Assembly: GCA_021325375.1 (NCBI GenBank)
Contig: JAJPHG010000011.1
Coordinates: forward strand, 186,001-250,000
Length of the DNA: 64,000 nt
Direction: 5' to 3'
Source of the DNA: Alphaproteobacteria bacterium
GTDB lineage: Bacteria > Pseudomonadota > Alphaproteobacteria > Micropepsales > Micropepsaceae
Shown: positions 5,530 through 64,000 of the stretch, one piece after another
Position numbering within the stretch: the stretch's first letter is position 1
Layout of the letters: every line of letters starts with the position of its first letter
Program-made: the position numbers and the translations under genes
The notes under the pieces: model-generated
What the model saw: only the letters and a program-made list of their open reading frames with translations
What the model was told of the DNA's origin: nothing
The model's database searches: none

Positions 5530-6033
5530 TCACGCCTGGGTTGACCCTTCGGCAACCTTGGACCCGTGGACGGGGCGGACGTCCATGGCGCCGAAAATCC
5601 CGGTGACGCTCAACCCGTCCTCGGACAGCGGCAGGACCGCGACCTCCATCTCCAGGAACTCCTTGCCCTGGAGGTTGGAGCGCATGGGGCCGGCGCCGAA
5701 GGGCTGCTTCTGGCGTACGCACAATTCCAGGATCGCGCGCATGCGCTGGAAGAAGGGCTGGTCCTGGAATTCGGACAGCAGATGCCCCGCATAGCGCCGG
5801 CCGAGGAACTGGATCACGCGGTCGCCGGCGATGCGGAAGCGGAAATCGTGGCCGCCGCCCACGACGTCGATCATCCAGATCCAGGGCAGCGCGCTCTTTA
5901 TCGGCGCGGGCGCGATCTCCTCGCGCTTGGGCGCCATGCGCCCGGCCGCGGCCTGTTTCCAGGCCTCGTAGACGGTGACGAGCTGCGCGCTCACGAGCGC
6001 GTCGGCGGATTTGGCGGCAGTCGTAACGGTCAT
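5530..6033 (-). CDS. PAS_5-domain protein
   Basis: This 167-residue protein matches the PAS_5 family, single-domain PAS proteins common in Alphaproteobacteria. The pattern LPWIWMIDVVGGGHDFRFRI, then GDRVIQFLGRRYAG, FFQRMRAIL and a terminal strand is typical. No kinase, GGDEF or HTH output domain is attached, so it would act by binding a ligand or partner. ATG 6033 follows an AGAAAGAG ribosome-binding site. A distant relative lies at 31219-31752. Ligand and role are unknown. Confidence 0.75.
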   Translation of the reverse strand: MTVTTAAKSADALVSAQLVTVYEAWKQAAAGRMAPKREEIAPAPIKSALPWIWMIDVVGGGHDFRFRIAGDRVIQFLGRRYAGHLLSEFQDQPFFQRMRAILELCVRQKQPFGAGPMRSNLQGKEFLEMEVAVLPLSEDGLSVTGIFGAMDVRPVHGSKVAEGSTQA

Positions 6034-6208
6034 CTCTTTCTTTCGAAGACGTGCGCGCAAAAGCGCCCGTCCAGCTATCGGTCACGGAATGGATCGGCGC
6101 CGACAGCTTCGGGCCGCGCATAAAGCCGCGGCACCTGGTGCTTCGATGGCGGTCGAAGACGAATGGCGAGGGCTTTCAATGGAATAGTGTGGCGAGAATA
6201 GGGCACGC

Positions 6209-7477
6209 TCAGGCGAACGGGCGTCCCGCGCGCGCATAGGCCGCAGCCGAGTGGAAGATGTTGATGGTCATCAGGCTGGTTTCCTGCGCGGCGCGCTTTT
6301 CGTAGATGCCCGCGACCTTCTCCTGAACCGCGCAATCCTGCGGCGCGGCTTCGAGCGCAAAATCGGCGAGATGGCAGGCGAGCCGGAAATCGCCTGATGC
6401 CGCGAGCGCCTCGGCGCGCTCGGCCAGCGACAATGCGCCGCCGCACGATTTCGCGATCTCATGTGCCAATTCGGCACGCGGCGCGGGCTTGAGCTCGCTG
6501 GGCCGTCCGCTCCACCAGCCGCCATAGAGGCGGATGACGTTGCGCACCAGGAACTCGGTGTCGTCATAGACGGGCTGCAGCCAGGGTGAATCGGATTTGG
6601 GCAGCTCGATCCCGGTCACGATGTCGACATGCGGCGGCGAGCCCGCCTCCATCGCCGCGAGCGTGCGGCTGACGAGCGTTTCCAGGAACTGCGCGGTCTC
6701 GCTCAGCATGTGCGCGATCTTCGCCGCGTCGCCGATCACCGGTCCGCCATGGCCGGGACACAGCGCCTGCGGTGCGCAGGCCGCCATCTCGCGCAGGCCT
6801 TTGGCGCGGTCGAGCGGATAGCGCTGCACCTTCTGCGGATTGCCGTCATTGGGCACCGCCCAGATGAAGAGATCGCCGGGGCAGACGACGCTGCGCTCCG
6901 GACACCACACCCAGGTGTGGTCGTCGGTCTCGCCGCGGCAATGCTTGAGCTCGAAGCCCACGCCGCCGACGCTGATGCTCAGGCGCTCGTCATAGAGCGT
7001 GTCGGGCGGCACGGGCGGCGCCGCGAAGGCCTGATAGGTCTCGCCGCTCTGATGCGCGACCGTGCCGCCGAACTGGCGCGCGTTGAGCGCGGCGTTGTGG
7101 CCCGAGGTCTGCGCATAGCGGGCGAAGCGCGCGGGCATGGCGCGGTGGGCGATGACGCGCGGGCGCGTCTGTCCCGGCAGCAGGAACGCGTCGAGGCCAT
7201 AGGCGTGGTCGATATGGCCGTGGGTATAGATCGCGGTGTGCACGGGCGCCTGCGTCCTCTGCCGCAGCATCGCGGCGATGGCGGGCGCGAACTGGCGCGT
7301 GCCGGTGTCGACCAGGACGAGGCCCTCGTCGGTCTCGAACGCGGTGCAGCCGGAGAATTGCGAGGCGAACCAGGTCCGGGGCGCCACTTCGACGGGGCCG
7401 CCGGTCCAGAAGAACTTGGCCTCTTCCGGGCTCTTGCCGCGCATGGTGGCGAATTTCGCCGAAGGATTCTGCGCCAT
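6209..7477 (-). CDS. MBL-fold hydrolase with alkyl-sulfatase-type dimerisation domain
   Basis: This 422-residue metallo-beta-lactamase-fold enzyme has the two-zinc motif HGHIDH (H86, H88, D90, H91), later metal ligands in HCRGETDDH and CPGHGGP, and then a helical region with YGGWWSGRPSEL, the signature of the alkyl sulfatase dimerisation domain. It lacks the C-terminal SCP2-like domain of SdsA1-type sulfatases, so the substrate may differ (sulfate ester, lactone or thioester). No signal peptide is seen. It is divergent from the methyltransferase gene, whose start is only about 50 nt away. Confidence 0.85.
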   Translation of the reverse strand: MAQNPSAKFATMRGKSPEEAKFFWTGGPVEVAPRTWFASQFSGCTAFETDEGLVLVDTGTRQFAPAIAAMLRQRTQAPVHTAIYTHGHIDHAYGLDAFLLPGQTRPRVIAHRAMPARFARYAQTSGHNAALNARQFGGTVAHQSGETYQAFAAPPVPPDTLYDERLSISVGGVGFELKHCRGETDDHTWVWCPERSVVCPGDLFIWAVPNDGNPQKVQRYPLDRAKGLREMAACAPQALCPGHGGPVIGDAAKIAHMLSETAQFLETLVSRTLAAMEAGSPPHVDIVTGIELPKSDSPWLQPVYDDTEFLVRNVIRLYGGWWSGRPSELKPAPRAELAHEIAKSCGGALSLAERAEALAASGDFRLACHLADFALEAAPQDCAVQEKVAGIYEKRAAQETSLMTINIFHSAAAYARAGRPFA

Positions 7478-7527: not shown

Positions 7528-8685
7528 ATGAGCGCACATCCGACGATCCGCCTGAAACCGAAGGAAGGCCGACGCCTGCGCGCGGGCGCACCCTGGGCCT
7601 TCTCCAACGAGATCGCGATGAGCGCTTCCGCCAAGGCGCTGAAGCCCGGAAGCGTGGTCAATGTCGAAGGCGATGACGGCCGCGCCCTCGGCACCGGCTA
7701 TTTCAACCCGAACAGCCTGATCGCGATCCGGCTTCTGGATGCGCGTCCCGACATCGTGCCCGACGCGGATTTCTTCGCGGCGCGGCTGGGGGCGGCGCGC
7801 GCGTTGCGCGATGCCGTCTATCGCGAGCCTTACTACCGCCTCGTCCATGCCGAGGGCGATTTCCTTCCCGGCCTCACCATCGACCGTTTCGGCGACACCA
7901 CTGTGGTGCAGATCACGACCGCCGGCATGGAAGCGTTGCGCGCGCCTCTGCTCGAGGCGCTCGACGCCGAGCATGTCGTGCTGCGCGCCGACACGCCATC
8001 GCGCGCGTTGGAAGGGCTTCCCTCCTACGTCGAAGGCGACGCCTCGCGCGTCGCGGTGCAGGAGAACGCCATCCGCTATTTCGCCGATCTCGCGGGCGGC
8101 CAGAAGACGGGCTGGTACTACGATCAGCGCGACAACCGCGCGTTCATGGCGGGCCTCTCGTCCGGCAAGACGGTGCTCGACGCCTATTGCCACACGGGCG
8201 GCTTCGCGCTCGCCGCGGCGAAAGCCGGCGCGCGCGAAGTCGTCGCCGTCGACAGCTCCGCGCCCGCGCTCGCGCTCGGCGAGGAGTCGGCGGCGGCAAA
8301 CGGATTGCGCTGTCAGTTCGTCAAAGCCGATGTGTTCGAGGAGCTCGAGCGGCTCGGCACAGCGAAGGAGAGCTTCGATCTCGTCATCGCCGATCCGCCG
8401 CCCTTCGTGAAAGCGCGCAAGGATCTCGAGCCCGGCGCGAAGGCCTATCGCAAGCTCGCGCGGCTCGGTGCGCGCGTCACCGCGCCCGGCGGATTGCTGC
8501 TGGTCGCTTCGTGCTCGCACAACATCGCTCCGGAGCGTTTCGCGCAGGAATGCGCCGCCGGCATCCAGCGCGCCGACCGCCGTGCACGCCTGATCCGCGC
8601 CGCCGGCGCCGGCCCGGACCATCCCGTGCATCCGATGCTGCCCGAGACGGCGTATCTCAAGGCGCTGGTGTACGCGCTGGATTGA
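7528..8685 (+). CDS. Class I SAM-dependent rRNA methyltransferase, RlmI-like
   Basis: This protein of 385 residues resembles RlmI, which methylates C5 of a 23S rRNA cytosine. An N-terminal PUA domain (RLKPKEGRRLRAGAPWAFSNEI) is followed by an EEHEA-like middle region and a Rossmann methyltransferase with VLDAYCHTGGFAL (SAM site), DPPPFVKARKD and SCSHNI, which carries the cysteine. The start at 7528 matches relatives (MSAHPTIRLKP); an ATG at 7510 would add six residues. Neither has a clear ribosome-binding site. Exact RNA target is not shown by the sequence. Confidence 0.85.
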   Translation: MSAHPTIRLKPKEGRRLRAGAPWAFSNEIAMSASAKALKPGSVVNVEGDDGRALGTGYFNPNSLIAIRLLDARPDIVPDADFFAARLGAARALRDAVYREPYYRLVHAEGDFLPGLTIDRFGDTTVVQITTAGMEALRAPLLEALDAEHVVLRADTPSRALEGLPSYVEGDASRVAVQENAIRYFADLAGGQKTGWYYDQRDNRAFMAGLSSGKTVLDAYCHTGGFALAAAKAGAREVVAVDSSAPALALGEESAAANGLRCQFVKADVFEELERLGTAKESFDLVIADPPPFVKARKDLEPGAKAYRKLARLGARVTAPGGLLLVASCSHNIAPERFAQECAAGIQRADRRARLIRAAGAGPDHPVHPMLPETAYLKALVYALD

Positions 8686-57437: not shown

Positions 57438-58007
57438 TTAAGGCGCGCTGACCACGGCGTGGGTGATCGTCACCGGGATATAGGGCGAGGCGTCCGGCGG
57501 GAACGGGCCGTGGCTGCCGCCGGTCTGGACGGCGGCGATCTTGTCGACGACCGACATGCCTTCGACGACCTTGCCGAACACCGCATAGCCGGTCGCGTTG
57601 GGGGCTGCGCCGGCTTCGGGGTCGAGGCTGTCATTGTCGGAGAGGTTGACGAAGAACTCGGCCGTTGCGCTGTTGGGCTCGCCGCTTCTCGCCATCGAGA
57701 CCGTGCCGCGCAGGTTCTTGAGCCCGTTGCCGCTCTCGAGCGCGATCGGGGCGTGCGCCGATTTCGAGCCGCCTTGGGCGTCATAGCTGCCCATCTGGAT
57801 CACGAAGCCGGGCACGATGCGATAGACGACCGTGCCGTCGAAATGCTTCTCGTTCACATAGCGCAGGAAGTTCGCCGCCGTCTTGGGCGCGTGCGCCGCG
57901 TCCAGCGATATGGTGAACGATCCCAGCGACGTGTCGAAGCGCACCTCGGTCGCGTTTGCGCCGGAGGCGAAGGTTGCAAGGGCGAGGGCAAGGACGAGGC
58001 GGCGCAT
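57438..58007 (-). CDS. Periplasmic cyclophilin-type peptidylprolyl isomerase
   Basis: This 189-residue protein has a signal peptide (MRRLVLALALATFASGANA) and a cyclophilin domain: VRFDTSLGSFTISLDAAHAP, HFDGTVVYRIVPGFVIQMG and NSATAEFFVNLSDNDSLD. It catalyses proline cis/trans isomerisation in the periplasm. ATG 58007 has GGAG six bases upstream; ATG 58019 is an alternative. It is divergent from the M3 peptidase gene. Confidence 0.92.
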   Translation of the reverse strand: MRRLVLALALATFASGANATEVRFDTSLGSFTISLDAAHAPKTAANFLRYVNEKHFDGTVVYRIVPGFVIQMGSYDAQGGSKSAHAPIALESGNGLKNLRGTVSMARSGEPNSATAEFFVNLSDNDSLDPEAGAAPNATGYAVFGKVVEGMSVVDKIAAVQTGGSHGPFPPDASPYIPVTITHAVVSAP

Positions 58008-58158
58008 CTGTGTCTCCATCCGCTATTTCGAAAGCCCACTACCACGCGCCACGCATGGCCGTCACCTAAAAGTGACTTCAGTTCGGCCCTCGCGGGCGGC
58101 AGACGAAGCGGCTAGAGTGCATGAAAATCCCAACATGGCCCAGCAGGGGGAGTTCTCG

Positions 58159-60327: not shown

Positions 60328-60365
60328 AGGCGCGGCGTAACCTATTGGTTATGCCGCGCCTTTTT
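60328..60365 (+). terminator. Rho-independent terminator after M3 peptidase
   Basis: AGGCGCGGC (60328-60336) pairs with GCCGCGCCT (60353-60361), with a nested GTAACC/GGTTAT stem, and is followed by TTTTT (60361-60365). It lies 21 nt after the M3 stop and is the clearest terminator in the window. Confidence 0.88.
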
Positions 60366-60393: not shown

Positions 60394-60464
60394 CAATTTT
60401 CGGTCTTGAATTACGCTTAATTTTATAGTTTATTTCTTCCGTGGCCAAAGTCTGGAGGACAAGC

Positions 60465-60698
60465 ATGGCTAATTTCAATCTTCATATCGCCTGCGCGCTT
60501 GCTGCCGCAGCCTTCATCGCCCCGACATTGGCGAGCGCCGATCCGACGACCCGGATCGAGACGGTCGTCGTCCTGGGCGCCGTCAAGGACCCGGCGAACG
60601 CGCTCTACCCGAAGGACACGTCCGCCAACGCGGCACCGATGCTTCCGGTCGTCTATGAGACCAAGCAGGCCGCGCCGAAAGACCCGACGTCCAAATAA
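60465..60698 (+). CDS. Small secreted protein with KDPAN/PVVYE tail
   Basis: This 77-residue protein has a signal peptide (to about SADP, residue 26) and then VVVLGAVKDPANALYPKDTS and APMLPVVYETKQ. The same tail recurs in the neighbouring gene. GGAGG lies six bases before ATG 60465. No family with known function was recognised. Confidence 0.7.
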   Translation: MANFNLHIACALAAAAFIAPTLASADPTTRIETVVVLGAVKDPANALYPKDTSANAAPMLPVVYETKQAAPKDPTSK

Positions 60699-60699
60699 C

Positions 60700-61128
60700 A
60701 TGGCGCTCTATCCGAAGATCGACAGCCCTTGTCCCTACAAGGGCGACCTGTCCGCCATCCTGGATGGCGACGTATGCCGCCTGTGCAAGCGCGAGGTCTT
60801 CGATCTCTCCGCCATGGACGACGCCCAGCGTGTCGCCTTCATGAGAGGCTGCGCCGGCGAGGTGTGCGTCACCTATCGCATGCCGATGCGGACGGCTTTG
60901 GCGGCGGCGGCCCTTGCGGCCGCCGTCGTCGCGGTTCCGACGGCCGTGGCGGCCTGCTCGGATCCGACCGAGGAGGAGGTTGTCATCACCACCGGCGGCA
61001 TCAAGGATCCGGCGAACGTTCAATACATGAAGGACACGTCGGACAAGAACATGCCCGCGGTCCCCGTCGTCTACGAGCCCAAGCAGGAGCCGTCTCCGCC
61101 CGTCAATTCGGCGAAGGCGCCGTCCTGA
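60700..61128 (+). CDS. Membrane protein with Cys-rich N-terminus and KDPAN/PVVYE tail
   Basis: This 142-residue protein has an N-terminal CPYKGDL ... CRLCKREVFDLS region with cysteines that could bind a metal, then GCAGEVCVTYRMPM, one membrane segment (TALAAAALAAAVVAVPTAVA, about 67-86) and a tail with TTGGIKDPANVQYMKDTS and PAVPVVYEPKQ. The tail matches the preceding protein. It starts one base after the previous stop, so the two form an operon. The topology suggests a cytoplasmic N-terminus and periplasmic tail. Confidence 0.7.
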   Translation: MALYPKIDSPCPYKGDLSAILDGDVCRLCKREVFDLSAMDDAQRVAFMRGCAGEVCVTYRMPMRTALAAAALAAAVVAVPTAVAACSDPTEEEVVITTGGIKDPANVQYMKDTSDKNMPAVPVVYEPKQEPSPPVNSAKAPS

Positions 61129-62587
61129 CCTCGGCCATGCTGTCCCAGCCGAGCAGTCCCGCGAGCTGAGCGGCCGCGAGCACCGATTGCTCATCGCCGT
61201 CGCCGACGGTGAGTGCGATATGGGTGCTGTCGAAATTGTCCAGCGCCAGGTCGAAGCTGCGCCATTTGCCGTCGGCGAAGGCGAGCGTCCAGCTATGCGG
61301 CATCCAGACATTGGCGACGCCGTGATAGCTCTCGCGCGAATAGACCAGGCCGTTGGCGACGCGGGTGGGAATTCCGGCCGCGCGGCCCAGCGCCGCGAGC
61401 AGCACCGAGGCTTCCGTGCAATCGCCCGCGCGCCGTTCGATTGTCTCGAGCGCCGAATAGTGGCCGGTGAAATCGACCTTGGCGAGGTAAGGCCGCGCCT
61501 TGTCGCGCAGCAGGCGCATCTTCTCCGAGTCGGATATGTTGAGCTTCGCCACCGGTTCGGCGATCGCCCTGAGCTGCGGCGCGTCGCTCTGCAGCCAGGC
61601 GGTCGGCCTCAGCGCGTCGGCGAGGGTGGCCGCGTCGGTGGCAAGGCCCGGTCCGCAATCGGGACAGATATCGACGGTGGCGAAGCCTTTCTGCGGCGTC
61701 ACGCGCTGCTCGCCGGTCTGCGGCAGCGCGAACTCGGTCCCGCTGCGGAAGGCGAAGCGGTAGCGCATATGCCCCAGCGTCGCGGGCTCGGGAATGCGGA
61801 ACGGCGATTTCGTCATCGCATTGGGAAGCAGGCGATAGGCCGGATGCGGCGCAAGCGCGGTGTCGCGGTCGGACGCCCTGATGACCAGCGTGGTCCCGAA
61901 CATGGGGTGGCGCGCCTCGACCACGCGTCCGTCGCGCCCCACCACGATCCGCGTCGCATTGAGCATCGCATTGCCGGCGAAACGCTTGCGCAGCGCCGGT
62001 GTCCTGCCTTCGGCATCGGCGGCGCCCGCGGCCTCGATGACGACGTGCTCCACGGCCATCGCGTCGATATCGAAACTGTCGAATTCGAGCCGCGGCGTCT
62101 TCGCCGCGTCCCAGCCCTGCAAGAGCGCTGCGCCGTCGTCGAAACGCACCGACGGCGGAAGATCGATCGTCTGCTCGCGCTTTTCGGCCTGCGTCTCGCG
62201 CGTGACGACGGCCTTGCCGTCTTCGATCCGGGCCTCGATGCGCGACCAGTCGCGGCCGGTCTGGTTGAGCGTCTCGATCGACAGCGTCCGGCCGTCCTTG
62301 TCCTGGTGGAACACCGTGCGCGAGGACAGATGCGTCGACGACGCGCCCGCGCCGATAAGCTGCGTCGGCGGTCCCACCTGTTCGCCGACGTCCATCTCCT
62401 GGGAGTCGACGATTTCGCGCCCGTCGCCCGTGGCGATCACCTCTTCCGAGGCATGCCCGATGGCGGTGCCGTTCTCGGTCACGATGACGTACCAGCTCAC
62501 CGTGCCTGCAGGCGCGCCGGCGGCCGCGGTCGCCGCGAAGATCGCCGTCAGCCCTGCAAATAGCGGCTTCAATCCCATCTCCGGCAT
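61103..62587 (-). CDS. Secreted transglutaminase-like protein
   Basis: This 494-residue protein has a signal-like N-terminus (LFAGLTAIFAATAAAGAPAG) and a C-terminal transglutaminase-core domain: the cysteine in RAGDCTEASVLLAALGRAAG, the histidine in MPHSWTLAF and the aspartate in FDLALDNFDS. The N-terminal two-thirds is a beta-rich extension typical of bacterial periplasmic transglutaminase-like proteins. Start 62587 or 62578 (MGLKPLF). Its 3' end overlaps the shared-tail gene by 26 bases. Confidence 0.85.
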   Translation of the reverse strand: MPEMGLKPLFAGLTAIFAATAAAGAPAGTVSWYVIVTENGTAIGHASEEVIATGDGREIVDSQEMDVGEQVGPPTQLIGAGASSTHLSSRTVFHQDKDGRTLSIETLNQTGRDWSRIEARIEDGKAVVTRETQAEKREQTIDLPPSVRFDDGAALLQGWDAAKTPRLEFDSFDIDAMAVEHVVIEAAGAADAEGRTPALRKRFAGNAMLNATRIVVGRDGRVVEARHPMFGTTLVIRASDRDTALAPHPAYRLLPNAMTKSPFRIPEPATLGHMRYRFAFRSGTEFALPQTGEQRVTPQKGFATVDICPDCGPGLATDAATLADALRPTAWLQSDAPQLRAIAEPVAKLNISDSEKMRLLRDKARPYLAKVDFTGHYSALETIERRAGDCTEASVLLAALGRAAGIPTRVANGLVYSRESYHGVANVWMPHSWTLAFADGKWRSFDLALDNFDSTHIALTVGDGDEQSVLAAAQLAGLLGWDSMAEVRTAPSPN

Positions 62588-62662
62588 CGTTCGTGAGAGG
62601 CTAGGCCGCGCCCGACGCGTTGCCAAGGGATGCGGCTCGACGGGCAGTTTCATGGCCGCGCC

Positions 62663-64000
62663 TTACAGGCTCTTGACGTCGCCGATGCCGTTCTGATTCA
62701 GGATCGCCGCCATATCTGTCTTGGCAACGTCGTCCGCGAAGCCCGAGTCCTTGAACACGACCTGGGTGTCGGCGGGCGCGAGCTCCTTCCGCCAGGAGAC
62801 GATCCCCGACGCAAGGTCCTCGATCACCTGCCTCGACAAGCCGTCGCTCAGGCACGCCAACAGCGCGCCGCCGTCGATCGCGTGAACCGTCTTTCCGGCG
62901 ATCTGCCGTTCGGCGATGGGCACGCACAGGTCGAAACCCAGCTTGAGCAGGAGTTCGTAGAGCATGTCCTGCTCCGTCCGGCCCTGACCGAGGCGGTCGG
63001 CATTCTTCGCAAGACTGTCCTGGCCGTCGCCCGCCGTCGTTTGCCATGCCTCGATGTTGGAGGACGCCAGCTTGAAGACGCGGAAGCCCGTATCGCCTTT
63101 GAATCGGGGGCTTGCCTTCGCGATCGCAGCTCCCGCGCGCCGCAGCCGCTCCTTCGTAATCTCCGCCAGCTTCAAGGGCCGGCCCAACGAGGCGCAGAGC
63201 GCCGCCGCGCCGGCTTGATGCTTGTTGCCGGGATCGAGAGGCTCGGGCAGTTGGACCAGAATGTATTTCCGGCTTCCCCCCGTGTCCTTGTTCAGTTCCA
63301 TCAAGGCATGGCCGGTCGTCCCGCTGCCGGCAAAGAAATCCAAGACCAGCGCGTCCGGATCGTTTTCCGTCATGATCTTCAGGGCGTCATAGACGGTCCA
63401 GAGGCTTTTCGGGAACGTGAAACCCGCGCCGGGCATCATCGCATCGAGCAGCTTGGTGCCGTATTCGCTGGCGTCGTATCTGGCGTTCTGCCAGACGCTG
63501 CGCATCGTTCCGGAAACCTTGTGAAAGATGATCTGGACGCTCGCGCGCCCCATCTTCGGCTCGAGCTTGTCGAGGATCTTGGGCACGGAATCGCGCGCGT
63601 AACGCCATTTCTTCTCGTCGCCGGAATCGGTCACCGGCCAGACTTCGATGCTTCCGTCGCCGCGCGGCACGTTGGCCGCGGCGGGATGGAACTCGCTCGA
63701 AGGCACGGCGCCGATGTCCAGGATTTTGCCGTCGCGCACGATGAAGGGGTAGAAGCAGTTGCGCGCATCGGCGCGATCGGATTCCGTGCCGCTGTCGCGC
63801 AGGTTGCGCGAGTCGATTTCGGCCTTGAGCACGTCGGCGAGGTATTTCCTCTTGTCCGCCGGATAGACGATGATCCCCGTCTCATGCACGTAGGAGATAT
63901 TGGTGCCCTGCTGTCCCCGGGGGTTGTGAACGATCGAGACGGTGGCGTGCTCATGGGAGTCCTCGCCGAAGATCTCCTTGAGCACGATCGCGAGCGTTGC
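62663..64000 (-). CDS. Type III-like DNA methyltransferase (Mod), C-terminal part
   Basis: This frame is open to the right edge, so the N-terminal part is missing. The 440 visible residues include the SAM-binding motif LDFFAGSGTTGHALMELN and a target-recognition-like region. The order, with FxGxG near the C-terminal half, fits beta-type adenine-N6 methyltransferases of type III systems. DPPY would lie in the missing part. A Res helicase-nuclease would normally follow at the 3' side, but the next gene (61103-62587) is a transglutaminase-like protein, so it is either solitary or has Res upstream. Confidence 0.8.
   Translation of the reverse strand, partial: ATLAIVLKEIFGEDSHEHATVSIVHNPRGQQGTNISYVHETGIIVYPADKRKYLADVLKAEIDSRNLRDSGTESDRADARNCFYPFIVRDGKILDIGAVPSSEFHPAAANVPRGDGSIEVWPVTDSGDEKKWRYARDSVPKILDKLEPKMGRASVQIIFHKVSGTMRSVWQNARYDASEYGTKLLDAMMPGAGFTFPKSLWTVYDALKIMTENDPDALVLDFFAGSGTTGHALMELNKDTGGSRKYILVQLPEPLDPGNKHQAGAAALCASLGRPLKLAEITKERLRRAGAAIAKASPRFKGDTGFRVFKLASSNIEAWQTTAGDGQDSLAKNADRLGQGRTEQDMLYELLLKLGFDLCVPIAERQIAGKTVHAIDGGALLACLSDGLSRQVIEDLASGIVSWRKELAPADTQVVFKDSGFADDVAKTDMAAILNQNGIGDVKSL

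Follow-up and report, generated by a model that had tools for sequence, protein, structure and literature searches.

To our knowledge, many secreted bacterial transglutaminase-like enzymes have neither a known substrate nor a known partner. Which described systems lie closest to the locus reported here? EipB of Brucella (DUF1849; structure 6ntr) is a periplasmic envelope-integrity protein, and its biochemical role is given as not known (PMC10787603). HvyA, which like LapG belongs to the bacterial transglutaminase-like cysteine proteases (BTLCP), is a periplasmic transglutaminase-like protease that acts on an envelope target and blocks capsulation in Caulobacter (PMC4241560).

The window, a stretch of 64,000 nucleotides from an alphaproteobacterium of the family Micropepsaceae to which all positions below refer unless a locus is named, encodes a secreted transglutaminase-like protein, TG, at positions 61,103 to 62,653 of the reverse strand (516 aa as the open reading frame runs). 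Its N-terminus is signal-peptide-like, and it matches the Transglut_core domain (PF01841) with an E value of 2.3e-14 and 54 bits against a cut-off of 23; all eight homologues scanned match the domain too. The catalytic residues C412, H453 and D468, together with a DICxxCG motif, are invariant in eight TG homologues. The predicted model (mean pLDDT 73.6) has two parts. Residues 293-511 resemble the Transglut_core structure 3isr, a putative cysteine protease (Z 13.8, rmsd 3.5 over 193 residues), and for residues 50-263 the predicted fold is the beta-spiral of EipB (Z 15.1, rmsd 3.2 over 196 residues), with a weaker resemblance to LolA-type barrels (Z about 6). No Pfam sequence match to DUF1849 was obtained in TG, and the 13% identity of the EipB-like part to 6ntr is too low to decide family membership. 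TG is a putative enzyme with a predicted transglutaminase/cysteine-protease fold; in it a catalytic domain appears to be joined to an EipB-like envelope domain, periplasmic by its predicted signal peptide, whereas EipB lacks this fusion. Such an arrangement may offer a clue to the binding partners of the EipB fold when it stands alone. The next gene, from 62,663 on the reverse strand to position 64,000 and past the window end, encodes an N6/N4 DNA methylase (PF01555, E 8.7e-08) whose downstream part is like a type III modification subunit.

TG shares with BTLCP proteins its predicted export, its Cys-His-Asp residues and the setting of the alphaproteobacterial envelope. However, it matches PF01841 and no BTLCP model; a Pfam scan of the eight homologues at E <= 0.1 returned Transglut_core, Transglut_core3 and DUF6645 only. 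Moreover, HvyA is a protein of 272 aa without an EipB-like domain, and the available part of its description mentions no tail partner (PMC4241560), whereas TG has a candidate in the exported tail considered below. The same EipB-like beta domain and candidate dedicated small exported partner set TG apart from other Transglut_core proteins; the two genes that carry the tail, A and B, are not themselves members of that family.

Two adjacent genes with a common tail

Gene A (60,465 to 60,698, forward strand) follows a ribosome-binding-like GGAGGA read directly at 60,454 to 60,459 and encodes a short form of 77 aa, a signal peptide plus the tail. Gene B (60,700 to 61,128, forward strand) lies head-to-tail with it, its ATG one base past the A stop, and encodes a long form of 142 aa consisting of a Cys-rich N domain, a hydrophobic export segment and the tail; it is convergent with TG, and the two 3' ends overlap by 26 nt. 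Upstream of the pair are an M3-family peptidase gene and, between that gene and A, a terminator-like hairpin at 60,328 to 60,361 of the forward strand (15 pairs followed by a T-run), which suggests that A and B form their own transcription unit. An exported cyclophilin-type peptidyl-prolyl isomerase of ordinary appearance (57,441 to 58,019, reverse strand; PF00160, E 2.1e-40) is encoded upstream of the peptidase.

The preliminary description of this DNA reported that the 77- and 142-residue proteins end in a common C-terminal block, and the reading frames and their lengths are as it gave them. The block reads KDPANALYPKDTSANAAPMLPVVYETKQ in A and KDPANVQYMKDTSDKNMPAVPVVYEPKQ in B. With the signal peptides excluded, the mature tails align with a score of 117, whereas 20,000 shuffles averaged 27.4 and reached 77 at most, so that the similarity is well beyond chance; orthologues exist as well. 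When B is used as the query against the whole genome, it finds itself and then A (E = 2.9e-12), the next best match being noise (E = 0.09), while A finds itself and B only, so the genome yielded no further tail gene. The earlier view that no described family is involved also stands, as A, B and the B family fall below every Pfam and NCBIfam cut-off and have no PDB sequence match above cut-off.

A single-sequence scan of genome contigs found nothing, but a three-row alignment used as the query recovered long forms in Caulobacter, Sphingomonas, Sphingopyxis, Hellea and a Proteobacteria MAG, and a 13-row alignment added more long forms together with seven short-form loci that encode a signal peptide plus the tail only. 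As short forms occur widely by themselves, A cannot simply be taken for a B that was truncated at this locus. A genome of the same genus (G091, contig JAFBAL010000026.1) carries B-A-B in tandem. The core shared with other genera covers less than the block first described, whose KDPAN..Y.KDTS portion proves to be lineage-specific: a hydrophobic strand, an invariant Gly, Gly/Ala, Ile/Val, a variable linker and a near-invariant LPVVYE. In B this core comprises residues 92-126 (60,973 to 61,077, forward strand), with the strand followed by G99-[GA]-[IV], the linker and PVVYE. The Hellea tail (locus L068) is the sole one to lose LPVVYE outright. The tail alignment contains no conserved Gln or Lys column. 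Several forms are also conserved at their extreme C-terminus (AKAPS; NLGxxVE); this was given no weight because the codons concerned lie within or next to the stretch that overlaps the TG 3' end. Two tail matches were rejected by inspection, one to a different, longer secreted protein (G920) and one to a TonB-dependent receptor (G804). In the predicted model of B, confidence is limited to the N domain and the vicinity of tail residues 101-110, and a fold search with this model gave no significant match (best Z 2.5).

Export and the N domain of the long form

How would the tail reach the periplasm? A was described earlier as using a signal peptide, and the sequence pattern agrees: residues 1-25 (60,465 to 60,539, forward strand) form a predicted signal peptide ending LASA|DPTT, which leaves a tail, placed by tail comparison and the family alignment and predicted to be exported, at 60,540 to 60,695. 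An internal signal peptide is an equally good reading of the membrane helix proposed for B, and its small-x-Ala site is placed as in A; this hydrophobic segment, about residues 65-85 (60,892 to 60,954, forward strand), ends AVAA|CSDP. A small-x-Ala motif ends the hydrophobic segment directly before the tail in every long and short form, usually as AxA|QD or AxA|QE, and in the short forms it reads as an ordinary signal-peptide site. Since the site pattern is common to both forms, the B segment may be cleaved too, with release of the tail, and need not serve as a permanent anchor. In the B proteins of the window and of G091 a Cys follows the site, and lipidation there is possible.

The Cys-rich N domain of B (60,700 to 60,885, forward strand), already noted in the preliminary description, is confirmed by four cysteines, C11, C26, C29 and C56, that are invariant in 13 long forms; its model block has a pLDDT of 84-95. 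These cysteines are metal-site-like and lie N-terminal to the hydrophobic segment, which is preceded by basic residues. The domain weakly resembles DUF1289 (PF06945) in a GxCxxCxR motif and then a helix with sdxER. However, hhalign aligns the two with a probability of 91 over just 26-28 columns, the DUF1289 model scores B at 13.7 bits against a cut-off of 27 (best E 0.012 among 13 members), and B has an additional export segment and tail. Given the loci that have a short form only, the N domain is dispensable.

Linkage of the tail to TG

The preliminary description had suggested that a shared periplasmic tail implies a common partner or target. That suggestion is supported by both linkage and co-occurrence, and the candidate is the transglutaminase-like gene beside the tail. 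TG homologues adjoin a tail gene at loci L062-L068, L098-L107 and L109, a set that includes all seven short-only loci, long-form loci and Hellea. TG lies next to every tail locus with intact surroundings, whether the tail is borne by a Cys-domain protein or by a signal peptide alone, and each locus has one TG to one to three tails. At most loci the 3' ends of TG and the tail gene overlap or closely abut; in Hellea, TG follows in the same direction and without convergent overlap. The long form at L088 sits at a contig end with its neighbour out of view; in the same genome, TG adjoins another tail gene, a short form. Two long-form relatives without a tail (L069; L085/L108) have no TG nearby, and a genome-wide search of one genome with such a relative (G627) found no TG. 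At L109, in Sphingomonas caeni, the two tail-bearing copies are closest to TG and the tail-less copies are farther away; the latter are two Cys-domain paralogues without LPVVYE at positions 5571-6023 and 7532-8095 of that locus (reverse strand). At L107 (about 6167-7389, reverse strand; genome G712) the TG homologue is in two frames, split or frameshifted in the assembly, beside an intact tail gene.

A further search looked for TG anywhere in each genome of the sets used for the tail, with three orders searched independently. Among the 96 genomes of the window's own order, both the tail and TG occur in the window's genome and in G091. Among 299 genomes of a second order (that of G477), ten are true tail carriers and the same ten carry TG, and among 296 genomes of a third (that of G478), G478 and G712 carry both. 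Tail and TG were thus found in the identical 14 of 691 genomes, without a single mismatch. Under random placement the probability of this would be about 2e-29, a value not to be taken literally because relatedness among the sampled genomes (L100, L101, L102 and L104 appear close) leaves fewer independent events than genomes. No other TG was found in 133 further genomes of the class; since the searches score limited candidates per genome, absence here means not found. Neither B nor TG was found in plasmid records, and TG was not found in viral contigs. Literature searches, in an incomplete collection, returned no description of the pair.

Proposed roles of the tail

On this linkage and co-occurrence, the tail is probably a dedicated partner of TG, although the Hellea tail, which lacks LPVVYE beside a retained TG, counts against this. 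The best reading is that A, B and TG make up an undescribed two-component envelope module, new as a family and gene pair and built on a known enzyme superfamily. A and B would be two carriers of one exported peptide, each placing essentially the same 45-55-residue tail in the periplasm, free in the case of A and, in that of B, either released or still anchored by the Cys-rich N domain. TG would be sent to the periplasm too, where the hydrophobic strand ending in Gly-Gly/Ala and the LPVVYE motif could dock on its EipB-like beta domain or its active-site groove.

What would TG do with such a peptide? We tentatively favor the hypothesis that the tail is a client cut by TG, which would process it probably as a cysteine protease acting near the Gly-Gly/Ala step. 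We lean narrowly toward a client over a regulator because the TG triad is kept, because each TG is accompanied by one to three diverging tails, and because a hydrophobic strand leading into an invariant Gly and then Gly/Ala would be a suitable site for a cysteine protease. The reading as a cross-linking substrate was disfavored as unlikely, since the tail has no conserved Gln or Lys. A more far-reaching version, which we regard as doubtful in its entirety, sees here a new module for peptide processing or signalling in the periplasm, in which an EipB-fold transglutaminase-like protease would cut at the invariant Gly that precedes Gly/Ala and so mature between one and three encoded exported peptides. 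A would supply its peptide in free form, and B would supply it from a precursor whose Cys domain is cytoplasmic.

An alternative hypothesis, plausible but one that we would not expect to hold, is that the tail regulates TG as an inhibitor, activator or folding helper, possibly as a removable plug in the beta domain or active-site groove. Strict pairing with a single enzyme, a short tail with two conserved hydrophobic motifs and the same lack of a conserved Gln or Lys would all fit a regulator; however, one to three diverging tails per TG, in free and Cys-domain versions, suit clients at least equally. It is less likely that B is a transmembrane sensor whose tail reads the state of TG outside while the cytoplasmic Cys-rich domain relays it, with A as a soluble competitor or decoy. 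The four invariant metal-site-like cysteines and the basic residues before the segment would fit a sensor, yet the N domain is absent from the loci of seven genomes where the short form alone stands beside TG, and every member has a signal-peptidase-like site where the segment ends.

Could tail and TG be mere neighbors, held together by overlapping 3' ends with no functional link? The overlap or close abutment at most loci would fit this, but Hellea keeps the pair in the same direction without it, the surroundings vary widely, and presence and absence agree completely within the sample, so that we consider this improbable. A TonB-box-like role, in which the tail engages TonB and its proximity to TG is secondary, was set aside as very improbable: one weak local profile match joins the first half of the tail to the mature N-terminus of a TonB-dependent receptor (QETVVVTGS; L096), but nothing in the receptor corresponds to the LPVVYE half, and the tail co-occurs with TG and not with such receptors at large.

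Returning to the preferred reading of a dedicated partner, the genome-wide signal points to a single short peptide, small enough to be synthesized, which makes its function directly testable. The TG-tail pair is a self-contained module of patchy distribution, since its other neighbors differ from locus to locus: an M3 peptidase gene in the window, assigned by domain scan, and, as read from translations, lpt-/rpoN-like genes at L098, polymerase-/acyl-CoA dehydrogenase-like genes at L099 and flagellin-like genes at L105. At L100, L101 and L104, from the order Caulobacterales, the pair lies within a sugar-nucleotide/polysaccharide-like gene cluster, a possible hint of a role in surface polysaccharides at those loci.
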